Positions 17,247 to 30,357 of a stretch of 36,389 nt of DNA are shown piece after piece. How positions within the stretch are numbered: position 1 is the stretch's first letter; each line of letters begins with the position of its first letter. The DNA is from Deltaproteobacteria bacterium (lineage in GTDB: Bacteria; Desulfobacterota; RBG-13-43-22): contig JACRBX010000078.1 of NCBI GenBank assembly GCA_016219225.1, forward strand, positions 1 to 36,389, given 5' to 3'. The notes under the pieces were generated by a model. That model did not search any database and was not told where the DNA came from. It was given only the letters and a program-made list of their open reading frames with translations. A program made the translations under genes and the position numbers.

Positions 17247-19677
17247 ATGGAAAAAAGTTACATAGAGTTGACCCCGGAAAAACTTCGAAAAACCTGTGAC
17301 TCGGAAACCCTTGGCTTTGAGACAACCGATGAACTGGTTGTCGGCCCTGATAAAGTGATTTCCCAGGAACGGGCCGTCCGGGCCATTTTATTTGGTGTAG
17401 GAATGGACGGCCTCGACCACAATATTTATGTGGCCGGCCCCCCCCAAGTCCGGCATGACTTATATCACCCGGACCTTGATTGAGGAAATAGCCCGATCCC
17501 AGAAAACGCCATCCGACTGGTGTTATATCAATAACTTCAAAGAGCCGGACCGCCCCAAGGCCCTGGCCTTGCCCAGTGGAAAAGGCAAGGAATTAAAAAA
17601 GGATATCGAAGAATTGCTCACCGATGTCCGAAACGATATCCCCGAGGTATTTGAAAGTGAGGATTACGCTCAAAGGAGGGAGGAACTCTTAAAACAGTTC
17701 GGCCTGGAAAGGACCGAGATCCTTTCCGCTTTGGAGGAAAAAGTTCTTCAAGAAGGGTTTATCTTAAATGTGAGTCAGGTGGGGATGGTCATTATGCCGG
17801 CTAAGGATGGCCAGCCGATGGATGAAGAAACCTTGAAATCCCTGGATGAGGAGAAGAAAAAGCAACTGCGGGAAAAAAGTGAACACCTCCAGACCGAAAT
17901 GAACCAGGCGGTTCGACTGATCAGGACCAAGGAGAAAGATCTGAAGAAAAAAATCAAGGACCTGGATAAAAAGATCGCCCTCTATGCCGTCGGACATCTC
18001 ATCGAAGAGCTCCAGGAAAAATATAAAGATTTTACCCAGGTCCTGAGGTATTTAAAAGATATCAAGGATGATATTATCCGGAATATCGATGACTTTAAAT
18101 CAAAACCCAGTGTGGCCGGACCCTTCCCCATGCCTCCCATGGAACCCTCTTTCACCCGATATGAGGTTAACGTCCTGGTGGATCATACCGAAAACAAAGG
18201 GGCTCCGGTGGTTTTTGAAACCAACCCGACCTACCCAAACCTATTCGGGACCATCGAAAAGAAGGCCCAATTCGGGGCCTTGTTCACTGATTTCACCATG
18301 ATTCGGCCGGGCTCTATCCATCGGGCCAACGGAGGGTTTCTGATTATCAAGATTCTGGACCTCCTGCGCTGGTATTTTTCCTGGGATGGTTTAAAGCGGG
18401 CCTTAAAAAATAAAGAGATCCTGGTCGAGGACTTAGGGGAACAATTAGGTTTGATCAGCACCAAGAGCCTGAAACCCGAACCCATTCCACTTCAAGTCAA
18501 GATTTTGTTAATCGGAGAACCCTATATCTATCACCTTCTGTATACCTATGACCAGGATTTCCCTAAGATGTTCAAGGTCAAGGCCCAATTAGACAACCAG
18601 ATGGATTTGCAGGAAGCCCCTTTAAAAGAGTACCTGCATTATATTGCCCGTTTCTGCCGGGAAAGACAATTGTTGCCTATGCACAAAAGCGGGGCGGCCA
18701 GATTGATTGAATACAGTTCAGAACTTACCGGTCGAAATTTTAAGCTCTCCTTACAATTGGCCGAGATCAATGACCTGGTTCAGGAATCCAGCTATTGGGC
18801 TACCCAGGTCAAGAGTCCCTGGATCATGGGCGAACACGTCGAAAAGGCCATAGAAGAAAAGATCTTCAGGTCCAATCTCTATGAAGAGAAACTCCAGGAG
18901 ATGATCACATTAGGGTCTATCAAAATCGATATCGACGGATACCAGATGGGCCAGGTCAATGGACTTTCGGTCTACCTGTTGGGGGACTATCAGTTCGGCC
19001 GGCCTTCCCGGATTACAGCCAATATTTCCCTTGGCAAAGAAGGCGTGGTGGATATAGACCGGGAATCGAAATTGAGCGGAAACATCCATACCAAGGGGGT
19101 GATGATTTTAGGCGGCTATTTGAAAGGCAAATATGCCTCTGATAAACCTTTAAGCCTATCGGCCAGCATCGCTTTCGAACAGAGTTACGGAATGGTGGAT
19201 GGAGACAGCGCCTCCGGTGCCGAACTTTTGGCCCTCTTATCGTCCCTGGCCCGGGTGCCTCTTTTTCAGGGCATCGCCGTTACCGGCTCCATCAGCCAAA
19301 AGGGAGAAGCCCAACCTATTGGAGGGGTCAATGAAAAAATCGAAGGTTTTTTTGAAGTCTGTGCAGCCCAGGGGCTTAATGGAAAACAAGGGGTTCTGAT
19401 CCCCCAGGCCAATGTCAACGACCTGATGCTTAAACCCAAAGTGGTCCAGGCCGTTCGGGAAGGCCGGTTTCATATCTATTCTTTTTCCCATATCGAACAG
19501 GCCTTTGAGCTTTTGACCGGTAAAAAGGCCGGCAAAAAGAAAAAAGACGGTACCTATCCTAAAAATAGTCTGAATTTTCTGATCGAGGACCACCTCCATC
19601 GCCTGAATGAAATCTTTAAGGAGACGTCCGGAAAAGAAAAAGAAGAAGGTCCGGGGAAAAAAGAATTAAATAACTAG
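17247..19677 (+). CDS. Lon-like (S16) protease with degenerate ATPase, interrupted by a frameshift
   Basis: Two frames together spell one protein of about 810 residues: 17247 to ~17440 in one frame and from ~17440 to 19677 in another. The break is in a run of eight Cs (17438-17445); one C fewer gives VAGPPKSGMTYITRT and restores the AAA_32-type Lon-like protein. In the merged numbering, the P-loop position reads GPPKSGMT (64-71, Met for the catalytic Lys). The Walker B strand reads GGFLIIKIL (362-370, Lys for Asp), so ATP hydrolysis looks lost. The protease domain is intact: Ser654 in DGDSASGAE and Lys697 in GGVNEKIEGFF, 43 residues apart as in E. coli Lon (679/722). A long charged coiled coil occupies ~180-260. 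It resembles ATP-independent LonC-type enzymes. GGGAGG fixes ATG 17247. The stop TAG shares CTAG (19674-19677) with the convergent pilin gene. Confidence 0.85.
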
Positions 19678-20981
19678 CGGGCTATTTCTTTCCAACTGCG
19701 GATTCTAACCAATCTTATTTTTGGGTTATTGCTGATGTTTTGAATGGCTTCCCGGCTGAAGAGGACCGACATATTGCCGGGCAGAAAGACGTCATCTTCC
19801 ACATTGGTATCCTGTTTGACCATGACCCCGCCTAAAAAAACCGGCGTGCCGGTGATTCTCAAATCTCCGTCGACATAAAGAAATCCCTTAAATTGCCAGT
19901 TGCTGGAAATCCTCAAGGTGGCCAGGGTGCCGGGGGTTTGCAGGGACACATACATGAGGGCGAATTCATTGGGGGCCAGAGACGGCGTAGAGGCCAGGGT
20001 ATAGGTTTCCCCTGGCGCCAATTGCAGGTAGATAAAACCGGAAGGTTGGGTTCCGGCGTCCAGATCGGCCCGGGTAGTGGTCGGGGCATTCAACAATTCC
20101 TGGAAATCCTTATCAGACAGGTTGATCATGGATTGGAAGGTGGGGAAGGTGGTAATACCGCCGGCGAGGATGGCATCGGCCCCTCTGGTGGCCCAGCCGT
20201 GGGTCCCTTTGGAATCGTTGATTACCCCGACATTGATCGTGCCGCTGTTATTTTGAACGGCCTTCACGGAAGTGGTGGCGGCGTCGGCCGTCCAATAAGT
20301 ATTATTAAAATTTCGTTTGTATCCGGCGCTGTCCGTAATGGTATCGTTGGGGTTTTGATCATTCAGGTCAGTGGTCGCCTTGTGGTTGGTGCCGTCGATA
20401 AAGGCCGAACCAGAGACACTGACCGATTTACCGGTCCCCAGGGCCTGGTTGGGCGGGGTAACCACCAATCCTTTTATCACGGCCTCGACCTCAATGGTCT
20501 TCCGGGTTCCGTTGGCGGCCATACCGGTGCTGGTAATGATAAAAATCGGGTAGGAACCGTCATACTGTATCGCCCCCCCTTGCGTTTTGTAGCGGACCCA
20601 GAGGGGATAGCTGCTGACGCCATATTTCAGAGGGGATTGAAGACTATTGCTATGGGTCGTGTTGGGGCCGGAGGGTGAGGTGGGGAGAGGACTCAGATTG
20701 GGGGCATAGAGGTACTTGTTCCAATCGGCATGGAGGGTCCCGGTTTCCCCGATGTACTGAGCGTCGGTAGCGGCTAATTTCAGGCGATACAGGGCCTCCT
20801 GAATACCCGCTTCAGCCAGATAAAGGGCTTCCCGGCTATAGCGGTAATTGCCGGAAAAGGTGATGTCACTGGTATAATATCGCCAGGTGGCAAAGCCGAA
20901 TCCCATCAGCACGGCCATCAGAATGATGGTGGTTACCAGGGCCATGCCGCGGTCGGCATTTTTTTTAAAGAGTCTCTTCAT
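19674..20981 (-). CDS. Minor pilin, PilX-like (second triad)
   Basis: A 435-residue type IV pilus assembly protein. The N-terminus RGMALVTTIILMAVLMGFGFATW, followed by YLAEAGIQEALYRLK, is the PilX N-terminal pattern: a membrane helix without the FTLIE pilin motif, then the AEAG helix. The long C-terminal part has beta-rich stretches such as GFLYVDGDLRITGTPVFLGGVMV. Role by family: part of the minor pilin complex that primes pilus assembly. AGGAGG nine bases before ATG 20981 fixes the start and overlaps the stop of the preceding gene. It is the last gene of the operon; its stop is shared as CTAG with the Lon-like gene on the other strand. Confidence 0.82.
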   Translation of the reverse strand: MKRLFKKNADRGMALVTTIILMAVLMGFGFATWRYYTSDITFSGNYRYSREALYLAEAGIQEALYRLKLAATDAQYIGETGTLHADWNKYLYAPNLSPLPTSPSGPNTTHSNSLQSPLKYGVSSYPLWVRYKTQGGAIQYDGSYPIFIITSTGMAANGTRKTIEVEAVIKGLVVTPPNQALGTGKSVSVSGSAFIDGTNHKATTDLNDQNPNDTITDSAGYKRNFNNTYWTADAATTSVKAVQNNSGTINVGVINDSKGTHGWATRGADAILAGGITTFPTFQSMINLSDKDFQELLNAPTTTRADLDAGTQPSGFIYLQLAPGETYTLASTPSLAPNEFALMYVSLQTPGTLATLRISSNWQFKGFLYVDGDLRITGTPVFLGGVMVKQDTNVEDDVFLPGNMSVLFSREAIQNISNNPKIRLVRIRSWKEIAR

Positions 20982-20994
20982 AAAGGATTGCCTC

Positions 20995-21492
20995 CTATAT
21001 ATTCCTCAATGTCACATCAGAGGCCAAGGTTTGGGTATAAACCGGGCTGGTATGAATGGTTTTTCCTTTAATGGTAATATGGATCTTATTAGCTGCCGGA
21101 TAGGTCAGGGTGAATTCGGTGATATTGGTATAAGCCTTGGTGTTTGATCCATTGGTATAAGTGAGTGTCTCCCCGGACCAGGAAAAAGAACGCACATTTC
21201 CGTCCTGAACCGAGGTAAAGGAAATGGAACTGGCCGAAGAAGCGGTAATCGCCAGGGCCATCCTGAGTTCTTTGGAAAGTTCTTCCATGATTTGTTGGAG
21301 GTTCCGACGTAAATCGATTTTTCGGGTTTCCGAATCGTAAGTCTGCTTTTGGGACTGATAACTGCTGTAAAGAACGCCGACGATGATAATGGAAAAAAGG
21401 CTCAGGGCGATCAGGAGTTCGATCAAACCGAACCCTCCGGACTTTCGCGATCTATGAATAGAACGCAATCTATGGCTTGCTGGGGGTTGCAT
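20995..21492 (-). CDS. Minor prepilin, PilW-like (second triad)
   Basis: A 165-residue prepilin-like protein: a basic 20-residue leader ending in SRKSGG, a cleavage site G|FGLIE with Glu at +5, then the hydrophobic helix LLIALSLFSIIIVGVLYSSY. The soluble part includes RRNLQQIMEELSKELRMAL, the helix seen in PilW/GspJ-type minor pilins. Gly rather than Thr/Ser at +2 is a mild deviation from FTLIE. ATG 21492 lies 8 bp after the upstream stop and has no strong ribosome site, so coupling is probable. Confidence 0.8.
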   Translation of the reverse strand: MQPPASHRLRSIHRSRKSGGFGLIELLIALSLFSIIIVGVLYSSYQSQKQTYDSETRKIDLRRNLQQIMEELSKELRMALAITASSASSISFTSVQDGNVRSFSWSGETLTYTNGSNTKAYTNITEFTLTYPAANKIHITIKGKTIHTSPVYTQTLASDVTLRNI

Positions 21493-21500
21493 TCATTTCT

Positions 21501-21986
21501 TTACCGAAAAATTGTTTTTAATATCACCTGGTGGGTCTGGCCGTCGAGCAAAGACCGCCAGCGTACAATGACCGCCACGGTTTTTAATCCCGGTGCCGGG
21601 CTGTTACTGGCAATATTCCACATCCGGTAAAAGATGCTGTCTTTTTTCCCTGTTTCGTTAGTGGCGTTGACCGGTTGATTGGTCAAAGAAGAATTTACCG
21701 TACCCGGATCGGTATTGATATGATCGGGGGTGGCATTATCCTCCAGATCATTCATATTGGCGTCATCGGCCAATTGGCTGTGCGTAACCGGTATCTGCTT
21801 TAATTCCTCCATTTTGCTTTGGGCCATAAAAGTGGCCACATTTTCCTCGCGGCTGAAGGCGCTTCCCTTGGTCGTCATCCAGGTAAAGGCGATCCAACCC
21901 AAAACCCCGATGAGCAAAACGACCAGGGCGACCAGGACTTCGATCAAGGTGAATCCCTTTGGGTTCTGAAAAAGTTTAGTGAGCAT
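21501..21986 (-). CDS. Minor prepilin, PilV-like (second triad)
   Basis: About 161 residues: leader MLTKLFQNPKG, cleavage G|FTLIE, helix VLVALVVLLIGVLGWIAFTWM, then AQSKMEELKQIP, typical of PilV. ATG 21986 is preferred over an in-frame GTG at 21992 because AAAGG stands five bases upstream. It begins the second V-W-X triad; the 65 bp separating it from the first triad contain a heptad array. Confidence 0.83.
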   Translation of the reverse strand: MLTKLFQNPKGFTLIEVLVALVVLLIGVLGWIAFTWMTTKGSAFSREENVATFMAQSKMEELKQIPVTHSQLADDANMNDLEDNATPDHINTDPGTVNSSLTNQPVNATNETGKKDSIFYRMWNIASNSPAPGLKTVAVIVRWRSLLDGQTHQVILKTIFR

Positions 21987-22011
21987 AAGCACCTTTAGCT
22001 CGAAAATAGCG

Positions 22012-22039
22012 TTACGGGTTTCGGGTTACGAGTTGCGGG
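22012..22039. repeat. Heptad array, 4 x 7 bp
   Basis: Units TTACGGG, TTTCGGG, TTACGAG and TTGCGGG in phase, placed exactly at the junction between the two minor pilin triads. Confidence 0.85.
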
Positions 22040-22056
22040 TTTAAAACCAGTCATGT

Positions 22057-23586
22057 TCAGTTATAAATCTCCCGCCGGTTCAACAGGGTATATCCTGAAG
22101 GGGTTCCACCGCCGCCGAAGTTGGCACTGCTCAGGTCCTCATCGTAATGGAATTCGGCATTGGAGGCCATTTGAACAAAATTCCCCCTTATGGACCCGTA
22201 GAGATCTGCATTGGATGCAATATGAACGGCGCTGTTGGGTGCATAGACCACCCCTCGAAGCCCGCTGTTCGAGTCCAGATTAACTTTATAATCCGTGCTG
22301 CTGGTCGATTGGGCATTGGAATAGACAGCCAGAGCCTGTGGCCTTCCTGAATTATTGATCGAAGTATTGGAGTTCAAGGTAAAAGTCCCGGTGGCATAGA
22401 CGGTCAGGGTTGATCCGGAGGCCAGGGTGATGTAGGTGTTGCTGCTCAAAGAAAAATTCCCATCAACATAGAGGGTGACATTTCCATAAACCGTGACATG
22501 GGAATTTGAACTCATAGTGAAACCGGTCAGATAAAACCCCTTGCTCTGGCTGGAACTGCCCAGGGTGGTGCTGTTGTTGCTTCCAATGGAAAAGGCCCCC
22601 CCTGAATAATAGGCCCCACTTAATTCACTGTTATTATTATTCCCGCTGTTGTTGGCCGTAGCAAACAGATTGGTTACATTTAACGGGTCGCAGGGCGAAG
22701 TAGGAACATAGGGTGAGGCCGGGGGGGTATTGGGGGACTCAATTCCATAGATGTCGGCATTACTACTTTGGGAAATGCTTCCTGCGGCAGTGGCGTTTCC
22801 ATAAATAAGAGAATTATTCGACAGGGAAATGCTTCCACCCGAATAGGCGTTTTGAGAAATTTTGGCATTACCGGACATGGTAATATTATTGTTGCCCTGG
22901 ACATCATTTCGGAGGATCGTATTGCTGGCCAGGGAAACGGCCCCGGTGGCCTTGACTGCCCCGTCAATATCGGCATTACTGCTGAATGTGATATTGGCGT
23001 TGCTATTGGTGGTCCGGACACTTCCTTGGTGCCCATTAGCCGTCTGGCCTGAAGAGCTATAACTACTGGTACTGGCGTTACTTGAAAAAGTGACTCCGTT
23101 ACAACCGGTCAGGGCATCGGTAAAAGGGGAATTACTGCTCAAATTTAATGCAATAATAGCTTCAATGGTTTTTCGGGCTGTTCCCGTCGTGCCGGTTGAA
23201 CGGATCAGATAATGAGGGTTATTGGTTGCCGTGGTGGCCACCACAGAGGGATTTCCCACCAGTCGGTGTCCTATTGTGAAACTGTTCGAAAAATTAGTTG
23301 AATTGTAGGTGTTGCCATTATTCCAGGTGGTGGAAGTCTCCGAGCCGCTATCCGAGACCACGCCGCTGACCAGCCGGCTGATACCGTCTTCGACGCCGGC
23401 ATCGGCCGCAAAATGGGCATTTTTCGTAGAAAGATAATTGGAAGAACGCCAACCCTCCACAATAGAGGTATTGATCCCGAATATCCCGAGGCCTGAAATA
23501 ATAACCAGTAAAATTAAAGCCGTAACCAGGGCCACCCCTTTTTCATTTGAAACCGGGTTCCGGTTGGGATTGTTTGAAGATTCCAT
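22057..23586 (-). CDS. Minor pilin, PilX-like with Asn/Ser-rich beta-helix-like domain (first triad)
   Basis: A 509-residue protein: a polar start, then EKGVALVTALILLVIISGLGIFGI, the PilX-type membrane helix, and the AADAGVEDGISRL helix. From about residue 150 the sequence is very rich in Asn, Ser and Thr, with loosely repeated SNAxI and SNTxI elements (for example NADIDGAVKATGAVSLASNT and YVDGNFSLSSNTYITLASG), as in right-handed beta-helix or adhesin-like folds. The start at 23586 is set by GAGGAGG six bases upstream; the reading frame is open a little further (TTG 23601) but that region is the ribosome site. It overlaps nothing and follows pilW directly. It may present a surface-binding tip; that is inference. 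Confidence 0.82.
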   Translation of the reverse strand: MESSNNPNRNPVSNEKGVALVTALILLVIISGLGIFGINTSIVEGWRSSNYLSTKNAHFAADAGVEDGISRLVSGVVSDSGSETSTTWNNGNTYNSTNFSNSFTIGHRLVGNPSVVATTATNNPHYLIRSTGTTGTARKTIEAIIALNLSSNSPFTDALTGCNGVTFSSNASTSSYSSSGQTANGHQGSVRTTNSNANITFSSNADIDGAVKATGAVSLASNTILRNDVQGNNNITMSGNAKISQNAYSGGSISLSNNSLIYGNATAAGSISQSSNADIYGIESPNTPPASPYVPTSPCDPLNVTNLFATANNSGNNNNSELSGAYYSGGAFSIGSNNSTTLGSSSQSKGFYLTGFTMSSNSHVTVYGNVTLYVDGNFSLSSNTYITLASGSTLTVYATGTFTLNSNTSINNSGRPQALAVYSNAQSTSSTDYKVNLDSNSGLRGVVYAPNSAVHIASNADLYGSIRGNFVQMASNAEFHYDEDLSSANFGGGGTPSGYTLLNRREIYN

Positions 23587-23597
23587 AGCACGCCTCC

Positions 23598-24314
23598 TCA
23601 ATTATACATTTTGACCGAGGAATTAAGGGTAACCGAACTGGTTTGGCCCGTATCCTGACGAATGTTGGCCGTTTGGGCCGAAAGGGTTAAATCGACCCTG
23701 ATACCGGGAGCGGTTCCGACCAATTGAGCGGTTAATCCGGTAATATAATTAGAAAGATCGACGGTGCTTCCATTTTTGGTATATTGAAGGGTATTGCCCG
23801 AGCGGGAAAAAGAGTGGCTCGACATCATCTTGTAATCGGAAGTCGTATCGGGAACGGTTGTCCAGGGGCTGCTGTTGGAAATGGTCAACTGGGTGGCGGT
23901 ATTGGAAACGATTTGTTTTGAGGTCTGGCCGCTTCCTGTACCGGAATGGATATTGACGTAATAATTTTGCCATTGATTGGTGGTCCAGGTTTTGGTCGCG
24001 TCATTTATGGCGGTGGCCGTGTTTCCTGCGGTGGATCGCCCAAAATCCTCGATGACCGAAAAGGCGAGGGTATTATTGGGGCTTGTTCCGCTGATGACCA
24101 CGGTAGAGGAGACCCCATCTCGTAAGAGACGAGCCATGAAATCTAAAGTGGACCGGGCGTTTTCCTGGTTATTGATCAGCTCCGATTGGGTTGAATAATT
24201 TTTACTCGTTGTCGTAAACAAGCCGCCCAGGGCCGCCAGGATGATGCCCAAAACACCCATGGTTATCAAAAGTTCGATAAGGGAAAACCCTTTCGGAGAA
24301 TGGAGAACTTCCAT
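23598..24314 (-). CDS. Minor prepilin, PilW-like (first triad)
   Basis: A 238-residue prepilin: leader MEVLHSPKG, site G|FSLIE, helix LLITMGVLGIILAALGGLF, then the ENARSTLDFMARLLRDG helix characteristic of PilW. The C-terminal half is beta-rich. ATG 24314 lies one base beyond the pilV stop, and its own stop is followed at once by GAGGAGG for pilX, so the three genes are translated as a tight block. Confidence 0.85.
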   Translation of the reverse strand: MEVLHSPKGFSLIELLITMGVLGIILAALGGLFTTTSKNYSTQSELINNQENARSTLDFMARLLRDGVSSTVVISGTSPNNTLAFSVIEDFGRSTAGNTATAINDATKTWTTNQWQNYYVNIHSGTGSGQTSKQIVSNTATQLTISNSSPWTTVPDTTSDYKMMSSHSFSRSGNTLQYTKNGSTVDLSNYITGLTAQLVGTAPGIRVDLTLSAQTANIRQDTGQTSSVTLNSSVKMYN

Positions 24315-24315
24315 T

Positions 24316-24711
24316 TTAACTCTTTGCCAGATAGGTTGAAAGGTTCACCTGCTTGGTAACCCCCAATTTGTCGACCCAGGTAACCCGGACCTGAATATAT
24401 TTCAGATATCCCGACACCGAATCGCTGATTTGATAACTCCGGGAAAAAGTCCCGAAGCCGGCCAAGGTTATACTCTCTGATGTGGTCCAGGCGGTATTGG
24501 TTGCCCCGGCATAACCCAAATTTTTTAATTGAACCAATTTTTCCTCGGCGGTGGTTGTGGCGGCTGTTTGCCATTTAGAGGAGGCATTGCTTCGCATGGC
24601 CGTTGTCTGTAACCCGGCCATGGCCATCAGACCGACGGCCAGGATAGTTACGGCAATCATAAATTCTACAAGAGAAAATCCGCCCTGGTGATGCATTGTT
24701 TTCGAACTCAA
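24316..24711 (-). CDS. Minor prepilin, PilV-like (first triad)
   Basis: About 131 residues from a TTG at 24711 that overlaps the fimT stop (TTGA) and has GGGAGG eleven bases upstream; an ATG at 24696 is the alternative (leader MHHQGG). Cleavage site G|FSLVE, helix FMIAVTILAVGLMAMAGLQT, then the EEKLVQLKNLGY region typical of PilV. The choice of start changes only the leader length. Confidence 0.83.
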   Translation of the reverse strand: MSSKTMHHQGGFSLVEFMIAVTILAVGLMAMAGLQTTAMRSNASSKWQTAATTTAEEKLVQLKNLGYAGATNTAWTTSESITLAGFGTFSRSYQISDSVSGYLKYIQVRVTWVDKLGVTKQVNLSTYLAKS

Positions 24712-25226
24712 TTTAGCACGACCCTCCCTGTCCAACTAAGCGTGATGGTCCGGGTTGCCGATGGTCCCTGGATTTGAACGGTTGCCGCCGAGATCTGCCC
24801 GGTGGAGGTGAAAACAACACTGCCTCCCCCCTGTTTGGTCACGGTAATACCAGGGTATTCGGCTGTTAATGTTCTGGTCTGGATTGAAGCACCGGTATCG
24901 ACTTGAACCAGATTGTAAGATGTGGAGCTGAAATCAATCCGGATGGATCGGTTCTCTTTCAAGGCGATGGTTCTGGCATTCAATAAATCTCCAAAAACCA
25001 GGCGAGCCGCAGCAGTCAGACGGTATTTTTTTATGGCCGGGTCGATTTGATACACGGCTATCGTCGTCAGCAGACCTGCTAAGGATATTACAACTAATAC
25101 TTCAATCAGTGAAAATCCTTTGGAGGAGGGGAGGGGGAAGGCGTTGGCCTTGCCTGCAGTAGAGGCCTTTTTCAGGGAGGATCCTTGAAAGATATCTTTT
25201 TGGTCTTGATAATCTGTTCGTCTCAT
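24708..25226 (-). CDS. fimT: Minor prepilin FimT/GspH-like, first gene of the pilin operon
   Basis: About 172 residues from ATG 25226. A long hydrophilic leader (~37 residues) ends at SSKG|FSLIEV, then comes the pilin helix LVVISLAGLLTTIAVY. The soluble part contains DLLNARTIALKENRSIRIDF and ends in the GspH/FimT pattern TLSWTGRVVL. A GTG at 25244 is also in frame but lies inside the riboswitch P3 stem, so ATG 25226 is preferred. The ATG is separated from the last riboswitch stem by a single base and has no separate ribosome site of good spacing; this suggests direct control of translation by the leader fold. It heads the seven-gene minor pilin operon. Confidence 0.82.
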   Translation of the reverse strand: MRRTDYQDQKDIFQGSSLKKASTAGKANAFPLPSSKGFSLIEVLVVISLAGLLTTIAVYQIDPAIKKYRLTAAARLVFGDLLNARTIALKENRSIRIDFSSTSYNLVQVDTGASIQTRTLTAEYPGITVTKQGGGSVVFTSTGQISAATVQIQGPSATRTITLSWTGRVVLN

Positions 25227-25227
25227 A

Positions 25228-25315
25228 ACTGGCGGATCAGCCACCCTTTCAACAGGGTTGAAGTTGGGTCTGGATCTTTGCGCCCCAGTCTTTCGGCTGG
25301 TTTACCTTTTTCAGT
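25228..25315 (-). promoter_or_regulatory. GEMM-I riboswitch (cyclic dinucleotide; candidate GEMM-Ib/cGAMP) before fimT
   Basis: On the minus strand the leader has the GEMM-I landmarks in order. GGTAAACC is at 25306-25299. A hairpin CCAGCC-GAAA-GACTGG carries the GAAA tetraloop at 25294-25291. CGCAAAG is at 25282-25276. A long P3 arm is built from GATC (25276-25273) with GATC (25238-25235) and TTCAAC (25262-25257) with GTTGAA (25253-25248). Closing stem ACTG (25315-25312) pairs with CAGT (25231-25228). Aligned to the Vibrio Vc2 aptamer (AGGGCAAACC), the base equivalent to ligand-contacting G20 reads A, the change that marks cGAMP-selective GEMM-Ib RNAs of Geobacter. The RNA starts at the predicted transcription start and ends one base before the fimT ATG. 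Confidence 0.82.
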
Positions 25316-25321
25316 GTTGAG

Positions 25322-25350
25322 AAGATAACACAAATATTTTGTTTTGTCAA
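25322..25350 (-). promoter_or_regulatory. Sigma-70 promoter of the minor pilin operon
   Basis: On the minus strand TTGACA (25350-25345) and TATCTT (25327-25322) are 17 bp apart. The expected start near 25315 coincides with the 5' strand of the riboswitch closing stem. Confidence 0.75.
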
Positions 25351-28950: not shown

Positions 28951-30357
28951 TTAATGTGACGAGTGACGGGTGGCGAGTGACGGATAAGGCTCAACATCGA
29001 GCCAGAGAAGATCTTTTCCCCGGGAGTATATCATTGCCTCCGGAAATTCTTTGGCCGGGCATTTTTCAAGGGGCAGAAAAAGCATCCCGGCCTTTTTCCC
29101 CGGAGCAAGGCTCCCTAAATGATCTTCGAGGTTTAGGGCCCGGGCCCCATTTAGGGTGGCCATTTCAAGGATCAATCTTGGGTCTATTCCCGGGAAGGAT
29201 CGATGCACAAAGGCCATTTCTTCCCAGAGACTGAGATCCTGATTACTGGCCAGGCTGTCGGTTCCGAGAGCCGGGGCCAGATTAAGTTGCAGCATGTCCG
29301 GAAGCAGGGGCAGGGACCGGGAAATAAAATAATTACTCCGGGGGCAGACCACTATTTGGGCCCTCTTGTCCTTTAAGATTTCAAGGTCATTCCTGACGGC
29401 CCGGGTCAGATGGATGCATTGCGTTTTTTTATCGAGGACCCCCAGGCTCTCTAAATAGGCAACCGGGTTCTTCTTTGGAGATGCCCAGTTTTCAATGCCC
29501 CTTCCCCGTTCCTGCAGAAACTCCCGCCAGGGGCCCTGACCGGTGAAAAGGAATTCTTCCTCTTCAATCGATTCAGCGACATGAATGGAAAGGGGAAGGC
29601 AGTGTTCATTAGTCCAGGTTTTGGCGGATTGTATGGCTCTGGAGGAGGTAGTGTGGGGGGCATGGGCGCCGAGGGACAACCAGTTGATTGCGGATTGCGG
29701 ATTGCGGATTGCGGAATCAGGGACAGAGCGTTCGGAATACAGAGTTCGGGCTCTGGCCCAGTTGATTGCGGAATGCGGATTGCGGATTGCGGAATCAGGG
29801 GGGGAGAGTTCGGGCTCCGGCCCAGAGGGGTCTACGCCCCGGAGGGAGTTCGGAGTTCGGAGTTCGGAGTTGGAGGTAAGGGAGGCCGGTAAGGTGAGGG
29901 TCTGATCCAAAAAGCCGATGACTTCGTAAAAGGCGCATCGAACCAATCCATCGGGCGATTCAAATCCATTACCCCCCAAAGAACCGGTCCAGTCTCCCAC
30001 GGCAATGGTTCCAAAGCGATGGAGATTTTTAACGGCGGTTTGAATGGCCGAAAGCCGCTCAACTTCCGTCAACGATTCCCTGATGGCCAATAAGCCCCTG
30101 ACCCAGGATAAAAAACCCAGTCCGGGGTTTAAACGTCCTTTTAAGGCCGAAAGTTCCAGATGGGTATGGGCATTGATTAAGGCCGGGAAAATGACCCCGT
30201 CCCCCAAATCGGTAAGCTTTCCTTGATCCTTGACCCTTCTGTTATCCCCGACAGAGATTATTTTTCCCTGAGAAACAGTCACCACCCCGTTTTCTATTGG
30301 AGGGGATTCGACCGGATAAACCCAACGGGCCTTATAAAAAATAATATCTGTTTCCAT
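28951..30357 (-). CDS. mqnX: Amidohydrolase, aminofutalosine deaminase-like (MqnX), with repeat-derived insertion
   Basis: A 468-residue member of the amidohydrolase superfamily (SsnA/TrzN/MqnX type). The metal site is complete: H64 and H66 in NAHTHLE, H259 in HVAES and D367 in GTDSLASN, with H232 in LGAHAPHTTS as a further conserved His. In the futalosine pathway MqnX deaminates 6-amino-6-deoxyfutalosine to futalosine; the operon context makes this the best role. Residues ~162-226 are an insertion with no family counterpart, encoded by heptad repeats (SNSELRTPNSL, then two copies of a DSAIRNPxSAIN-type stretch). The last ten residues are repeat-encoded too. The frame stays open throughout, so the protein may still work if the loop is external. 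ATG 30357 lacks a clear ribosome site. Confidence 0.82.
   Translation of the reverse strand: METDIIFYKARWVYPVESPPIENGVVTVSQGKIISVGDNRRVKDQGKLTDLGDGVIFPALINAHTHLELSALKGRLNPGLGFLSWVRGLLAIRESLTEVERLSAIQTAVKNLHRFGTIAVGDWTGSLGGNGFESPDGLVRCAFYEVIGFLDQTLTLPASLTSNSELRTPNSLRGVDPSGPEPELSPPDSAIRNPHSAINWARARTLYSERSVPDSAIRNPQSAINWLSLGAHAPHTTSSRAIQSAKTWTNEHCLPLSIHVAESIEEEEFLFTGQGPWREFLQERGRGIENWASPKKNPVAYLESLGVLDKKTQCIHLTRAVRNDLEILKDKRAQIVVCPRSNYFISRSLPLLPDMLQLNLAPALGTDSLASNQDLSLWEEMAFVHRSFPGIDPRLILEMATLNGARALNLEDHLGSLAPGKKAGMLFLPLEKCPAKEFPEAMIYSRGKDLLWLDVEPYPSLATRHSSH
28956..28983. repeat. Heptad array, 4 x 7 bp, at the 3' end of mqnX
   Basis: Units GTGACGA, GTGACGG (twice) and GTGGCGA in phase. Read on the minus strand it encodes the last residues of MqnX (PSLATRHSSH), so the C-terminal tail of that enzyme is repeat-derived. 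Confidence 0.85.
29681..29873. repeat. Three heptad arrays and a 78/64-bp tandem duplication inside mqnX
   Basis: GATTGCG repeats four times at 29686-29713 plus a degenerate fifth. At 29764-29798 GATTGCG occurs three times with one GAATGCG and the same degenerate last unit. GAGTTCG repeats three times plus GAGTTGG at 29846-29873. The blocks 29681-29758 and 29759-29822 are imperfect copies of each other; they differ in length by 14 bp, exactly two heptads. Confidence 0.9.

Follow-up and report, generated by a model that had tools for sequence, protein, structure and literature searches.

A GEMM-I aptamer that stops one base short of the fimT start codon: a predicted c-di-GMP switch, probably without a separate expression platform, in a minor-pilin operon of Desulfobacterota

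How a riboswitch could control a gene when its aptamer leaves no room ahead of the start codon, and which dinucleotide it would sense, are the questions raised by the leader of a minor-pilin operon in a Deltaproteobacteria bacterium (Desulfobacterota; RBG-13-43-22). The window analysed here is the whole 36,389-nucleotide (nt) stretch of contig JACRBX010000078.1 (assembly GCA_016219225.1), and the element in question lies on its minus strand, directly ahead of a fimT gene. A GEMM-I aptamer is present in this leader. An earlier note had assigned the leader to this class, and the Rfam covariance model RF01051 for class-I cyclic di-GMP (c-di-GMP-I, GEMM-I) RNAs bears the assignment out: the full model (1-87) matches with 52 bits, the gathering score being 35, and the E values are 1.6e-7 for the window and 6e-9 for the whole genome. 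It is the sole RF01051 match across the 5.9-Mb genome. The core motifs described in the note, GGTAAACC, a GAAA-capped hairpin and CGCAAAG, were seen in that order, and the counterparts of the ligand contacts G20, A47 and C92 of the type GEMM-I aptamer Vc2 are G, A and C, respectively. With regard to function, the reading that we favour, at somewhat better than even confidence, is a class-I c-di-GMP switch without a separate platform, in which the bound aptamer and the 30S ribosomal subunit would vie for one stretch of RNA, so that the switch is probably of the OFF type. The features on which the argument depends, all on the minus strand, are as follows.

25322-25350, minus: promoter, TTGACA (25345-25350), 17-nt spacer and TATCTT (25322-25327), 10/12 matches
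25228-25316, minus: c-di-GMP-I (GEMM-I) aptamer, RF01051 match, occupying the entire predicted leader
25312-25315, minus: 5' strand of helix P1, ACUG, partner of CAGU 25228-25231
25306, minus: ligand-specificity base, Vc2 G20 equivalent, G (register from PMC6274999 and PMC4744006)
25280-25305, minus: helix P2, capped by a GAAA loop; begins with G25305-C25280, followed by U25304-G25281
25279, minus: A47 equivalent in junction J2/3, A (register from the papers)
25235-25276, minus: helix P3, with AAGGGTGG in its 3' strand
25232, minus: C92 equivalent, partner of a ligand guanine, C (register from the papers)
25228-25231, minus: 3' strand of P1, CAGU, separated from the ATG by one base (U 25227)
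25224-25226, minus: putative fimT start codon, ATG
24708-25226, minus: fimT/gspH-type minor pilin, 172 amino acids, PF12019 (E=2e-8) and PF07963 (N_methyl; E=1e-6)
19674-24696, minus: remainder of the minor-pilin operon, PF07963, PF14341 and PF23981

The promoter is of the sigma-70 type, with a TG one base ahead of the -10 element, and the same -35 TTGACA precedes the aptamer at two related loci (G001 and G002b). Judged by the promoter consensus only, transcription is predicted to start at about 25315-25318, on the first bases of P1, and therefore the aptamer would fill the leader. The proposal that promoter, transcript start, aptamer and ATG abut thus stands for the promoter and for the end of P1 one base before the ATG, its transcript start being a consensus prediction, and the description of the aptamer as the whole leader agrees with a predicted start at the 5' base of P1 and a P1 that reaches the ATG. 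The operon was also correctly described as one of minor pilins: the GspH/FimT gene is followed by pilV-, pilW- and pilX-like genes and then by a second pilV/pilW/pilX-like set. The FimT prepilin leader is long (37 amino acids up to the Gly preceding FSLIE), and a second in-frame candidate start, GTG 25242-25244, is located within P3. Folding of the single sequence did not recover the aptamer and was not clearly better than that of shuffled sequences (z -1.5, -0.6); because the junction and the ligand are outside the energy model, this result was counted neither for nor against the aptamer.

The identity of the ligand depends on the base that corresponds to Vc2 G20. The earlier note had read an A at this position, as in GEMM-Ib RNAs, and had accordingly placed the minor pilins under 3',3'-cyclic GMP-AMP (cGAMP). 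The numbering was taken from four publications (PMC6274999, PMC4744006, PMC9262584, PMC7288161). In the cGAMP riboswitch, A14 closes J1/2, P2 opens with the C15-G40 pair and A41 is next (PMC6274999), while Vc1 G12 and A39 correspond to Vc2 G20 and A47 (PMC4744006). In each case the specificity base precedes the junction A by 27 nt, and in the crystal numbering it adjoins the first P2 pair on the 5' side. By this rule it is the G at 25306; the A at 25307 corresponds to Vc2 G19, and the note's register was one base off. As an empirical check, positions 20, 21, 22 and 46 were tabulated in 52 aptamers (51 from relatives and that of the window).

G-G-C with C46: 24 of 52 aptamers
A-C-U with G46: 14 of 52 aptamers
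G-C-C with G46: 11 of 52 aptamers
G-G-U with C46: 2 of 52 aptamers, the window being one
G-U-C with G46: 1 of 52 aptamers

All A20 (GEMM-Ib type) aptamers (14/14) carry A-C-U with G46, and they come from two GEMM-rich relatives with 14 and 23 matches. The window aptamer, with G-G-U and C46, belongs to the G20 group and has a G21-C46 pair where the A20 aptamers have C-G; the one trait common to it and the A20 set is U22, which forms a U-G wobble in lower P2. The search for a Hypr-type GGDEF enzyme that the note had suggested was also run. Among 15 GGDEF matches in the genome, two are truncated and 13 are testable; all 13 have Asp at the selectivity position, so that no Hypr-type domain was found among them, other cGAMP synthases not having been searched for. 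The identical screen of G065, a carrier of A20 aptamers, gave one Ser and one Thr variant and is therefore able to detect Hypr-like domains, although a Hypr enzyme is a supporting and not a defining feature of GEMM-Ib. The genome also encodes four PilZ domains plus type II/IV secretion and pilus ATPases, which is in keeping with ordinary c-di-GMP signalling. On the grounds of the G at position 20 and the GGDEF screen, cGAMP specificity was rejected, and a cGAMP-sensing GEMM-Ib riboswitch is regarded as very improbable. The aptamer is predicted, from its sequence, to bind c-di-GMP, which is presumably also the ligand in vivo.

The same survey revealed a third aptamer type, G20 with C21-G46 (GCC...CGGAAAG), at L059-L062 and L082-L086 (G005, G044, G098). 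It is intermediate between the c-di-GMP and A20 types, and position 20 alone does not settle ligand preference. A GGDEF domain in a 1641-amino-acid open frame, L099 (G001:C23:24439-24909), shows an Asp-to-Asn replacement at the selectivity position (GHPLGN).

Evidence that the aptamer and the start codon form one unit comes from the genus, in which the window genome, G001 (one such aptamer) and G002 (two) provide four loci in three genomes. The AUG is at the identical place behind the aptamer at 4/4 loci, one base away here and at the three others, which leaves no separate expression platform, and at each of them no stop interrupts the 35-42 codons between the ATG and the Gly of the pilin motif. 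In all four cases the encoded FimT has the GspH domain and the N-terminal methylation motif above cut-off. The RNA block is 90% identical, whereas the FimT proteins are 28-52% identical, and sequence similarity ends right after the AUG. Within the P1/P2/P3 structure, 98% of cells are paired in the four sequences, with two compensatory pairs; the covariation support is weak because most pairs do not vary, and the ten lower pairs of P3 show zero variation. Abutment as such also occurs outside the genus: three other aptamers among the 52 (L060, L069, L078) have an open reading frame (ORF) start at ≤2 nt, apparently through mechanical extension of a longer frame. Therefore, abutment alone is no proof, and the case rests on conservation in the genus. 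For the genus, a GEMM-I aptamer fused to the start codon, being at once the sensor and the translation initiation region for which ligand and 30S subunit compete directly, is given an even chance; on this reading the invariant lower stem of P3 would reflect such a double duty. Two successive minor-pilin clusters at G002:C349 (L050 5458-5549, 8400-8490) are each headed by an aptamer-ATG fusion of this kind, as would be expected if the operon had been duplicated along with its riboswitch.

A covariance model (R1) built from the four genus loci, that of the window included, was searched in 395 genomes of the phylum. The source loci score 109-119 bits (window 109) and all matches elsewhere ≤72 bits. 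The next-best matches come from one other family and again precede FimT-like pilins (L134-L137; G130, G033, G310, G346). These are the same aptamer class heading the same type of gene, but they have about 125-145 nt between aptamer and ATG, with an ordinary Shine-Dalgarno sequence, where the window has one base; in most of the others among the 52 aptamers checked, an ORF likewise follows only after tens to hundreds of bases. Control of minor pilins by GEMM-I thus seems to recur, and the missing platform is special to this genus. A further recurrent GEMM target was noticed in the same material: the aptamers of L048, L049, L051, L053 and L054 (genus and family) and L067 (G065) lie 56-62 nt ahead of genes for secreted proteins bearing QVTLAWDPN...DLAGY...YG, and such targets are also present in other families of the phylum.

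The proposed mechanism follows from this geometry. Transcription would start at the 5' base of P1, the aptamer would be the complete 5' untranslated region, and P1 would close one base ahead of the fimT AUG. Binding of c-di-GMP, with its guanines at the G20 and C92 equivalents and the A47 equivalent between them, would lock P1 and the base of P3. The region in which the ribosome lands, from about -20 to about +15 relative to the AUG, would become part of the folded aptamer. The 30S subunit would then be kept from loading, with repression of FimT and of the minor pilins encoded downstream; without ligand, P1 would open and the ribosome would enter. The sole Shine-Dalgarno-like stretch of the leader, AAGGGTGG, is part of the P3 3' strand and is separated from the AUG by 14 nt, and the ribosome footprint would thus coincide with P3, the C92 equivalent and P1. 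Since a single base separates the aptamer from the start codon, it is probably the sensor that determines whether ribosomes can start. In ligand-free folding, P1 occupies 0-29% of the ensemble; in the Geobacter pilM RNA, P1 was observed with ligand only, and Vc2 has been described as a translational OFF switch (PMC9262584). The earlier suggestion that control is most simply exerted at translation is supported, as no terminator-like site was found on the minus strand near the leader and there is no room for a platform before the AUG; in the four-locus comparison, no conserved platform-like sequence was found downstream of the AUG either. The translational level and the OFF polarity are what we infer from this arrangement. 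Several points weigh against it. The polarity is not fixed by the sequence, ligand-free folding already pairs much of the region, and both c-di-GMP binding and the effect on expression are predictions. Moreover, several other genes of the window have weak Shine-Dalgarno sequences too, so the lack of one at fimT is not remarkable by itself, and the start codon may be ATG 25226, GTG 25244 or a downstream near-cognate. A hairpin, GGUGG-CUGAU-CCGCC, that would bring a purine stretch beside the AUG was tried as a further element; it reaches 0.2-4% in three loci and 42% in one, and it is not claimed because it is weak and because similar self-pairing occurs in other GEMM aptamers.

The sign of the response is the point on which the closest alternative differs. 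In an ON switch based on the same c-di-GMP aptamer and also acting on translation, the AUG region would be sequestered in the ligand-free state by pairings within the leader or with early coding RNA, and ligand-driven formation of P1 and P3 would leave the AUG accessible below the helix. This is unlikely, but it is kept because parts of the region are also occupied in ligand-free folds: their best forms pair bases adjoining the AUG, and without ligand the aptamer conformation is 0.5 to 6.8 kcal/mol less stable than the best fold. The related Geobacter pilM riboswitch is also an ON switch, though a transcriptional one (PMC9262584). However, the alternative pairings vary between loci, the coding side is not conserved past the AUG, and a bound aptamer one base short of the AUG would obstruct the ribosome.

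Control of transcription through Rho, a pause or a terminator in the early coding region is improbable. Terminator-type GEMM-I switches are well known, and a spacer of about 140 nt is kept ahead of FimT-like pilins in the other family, but no terminator-like site was found on the minus strand around the window's leader, the sequence downstream of the AUG is not conserved, and a platform would have no room before it. More doubtful still is a start of fimT further downstream, for example at CTG 25175, in which case the leader would contain an ordinary untranslated platform and the abutting ATG would be incidental. An AAGGA does stand six bases ahead of this CTG, an internal ATG in G001 yields the classical short leader MHQKG-FSLVE, the prepilin leaders, when read from the adjoining ATG, are mutually unlike and of unusual length, and three of the other aptamers surveyed also have an abutting ORF start of the mechanical kind. 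Nevertheless, the ATG is invariant behind P1 while the bases that follow it diverge, and open frames together with the ATG would occur by chance with a probability of the order of 1e-5 if independent (a rough figure that takes 61/64 for each codon and 1/3 for each frame). CTG is a rare start codon, and the four loci have no start of this kind in common.

Direct competition of bound aptamer and ribosome, as favoured here, can be set beside known systems. With Vc2 of Vibrio cholerae the window shares the full-length model match, the ligand-contact equivalents, P1, the P2 GAAA loop and P3, and it differs in that the aptamer itself stops one base before the AUG. The Geobacter GEMM-Ib RNAs (Gm0970, pilM) resemble it in overall fold, in GEMM-type control of pilus genes and in the lower-P2 U-G pair, whereas the window has a G where they have A at the specificity position and a G21-C46 pair where they have C-G; no Hypr enzyme was found among the 13 testable GGDEF domains of its genome, and no terminator in its leader. 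SAM-II and preQ1-II riboswitches are comparable in working principle only: in these the ligand domain overlaps the ribosome-binding region, with folds and ligands unrelated to those of GEMM-I. With the ligand call corrected to c-di-GMP, there is no need to place the lineage among the cGAMP users. Should the fused architecture work as proposed, this would be a very short c-di-GMP switch, the transcript start and the AUG being about 90 nt apart, and it would offer a simple way to ask if ligand-bound aptamer is by itself enough to exclude the ribosome. The supply of minor pilins, and possibly pilus priming, would then be tied to c-di-GMP at the RNA level in these uncultured groundwater and sediment bacteria.

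Elsewhere in the window, an amidohydrolase-like gene (28951-30357) contains a low-complexity insert at 29581-29905 composed of repeats such as NSELRTPNS and PDSAIRNPHSAIN, much as if an interspersed repeat had invaded the coding frame.
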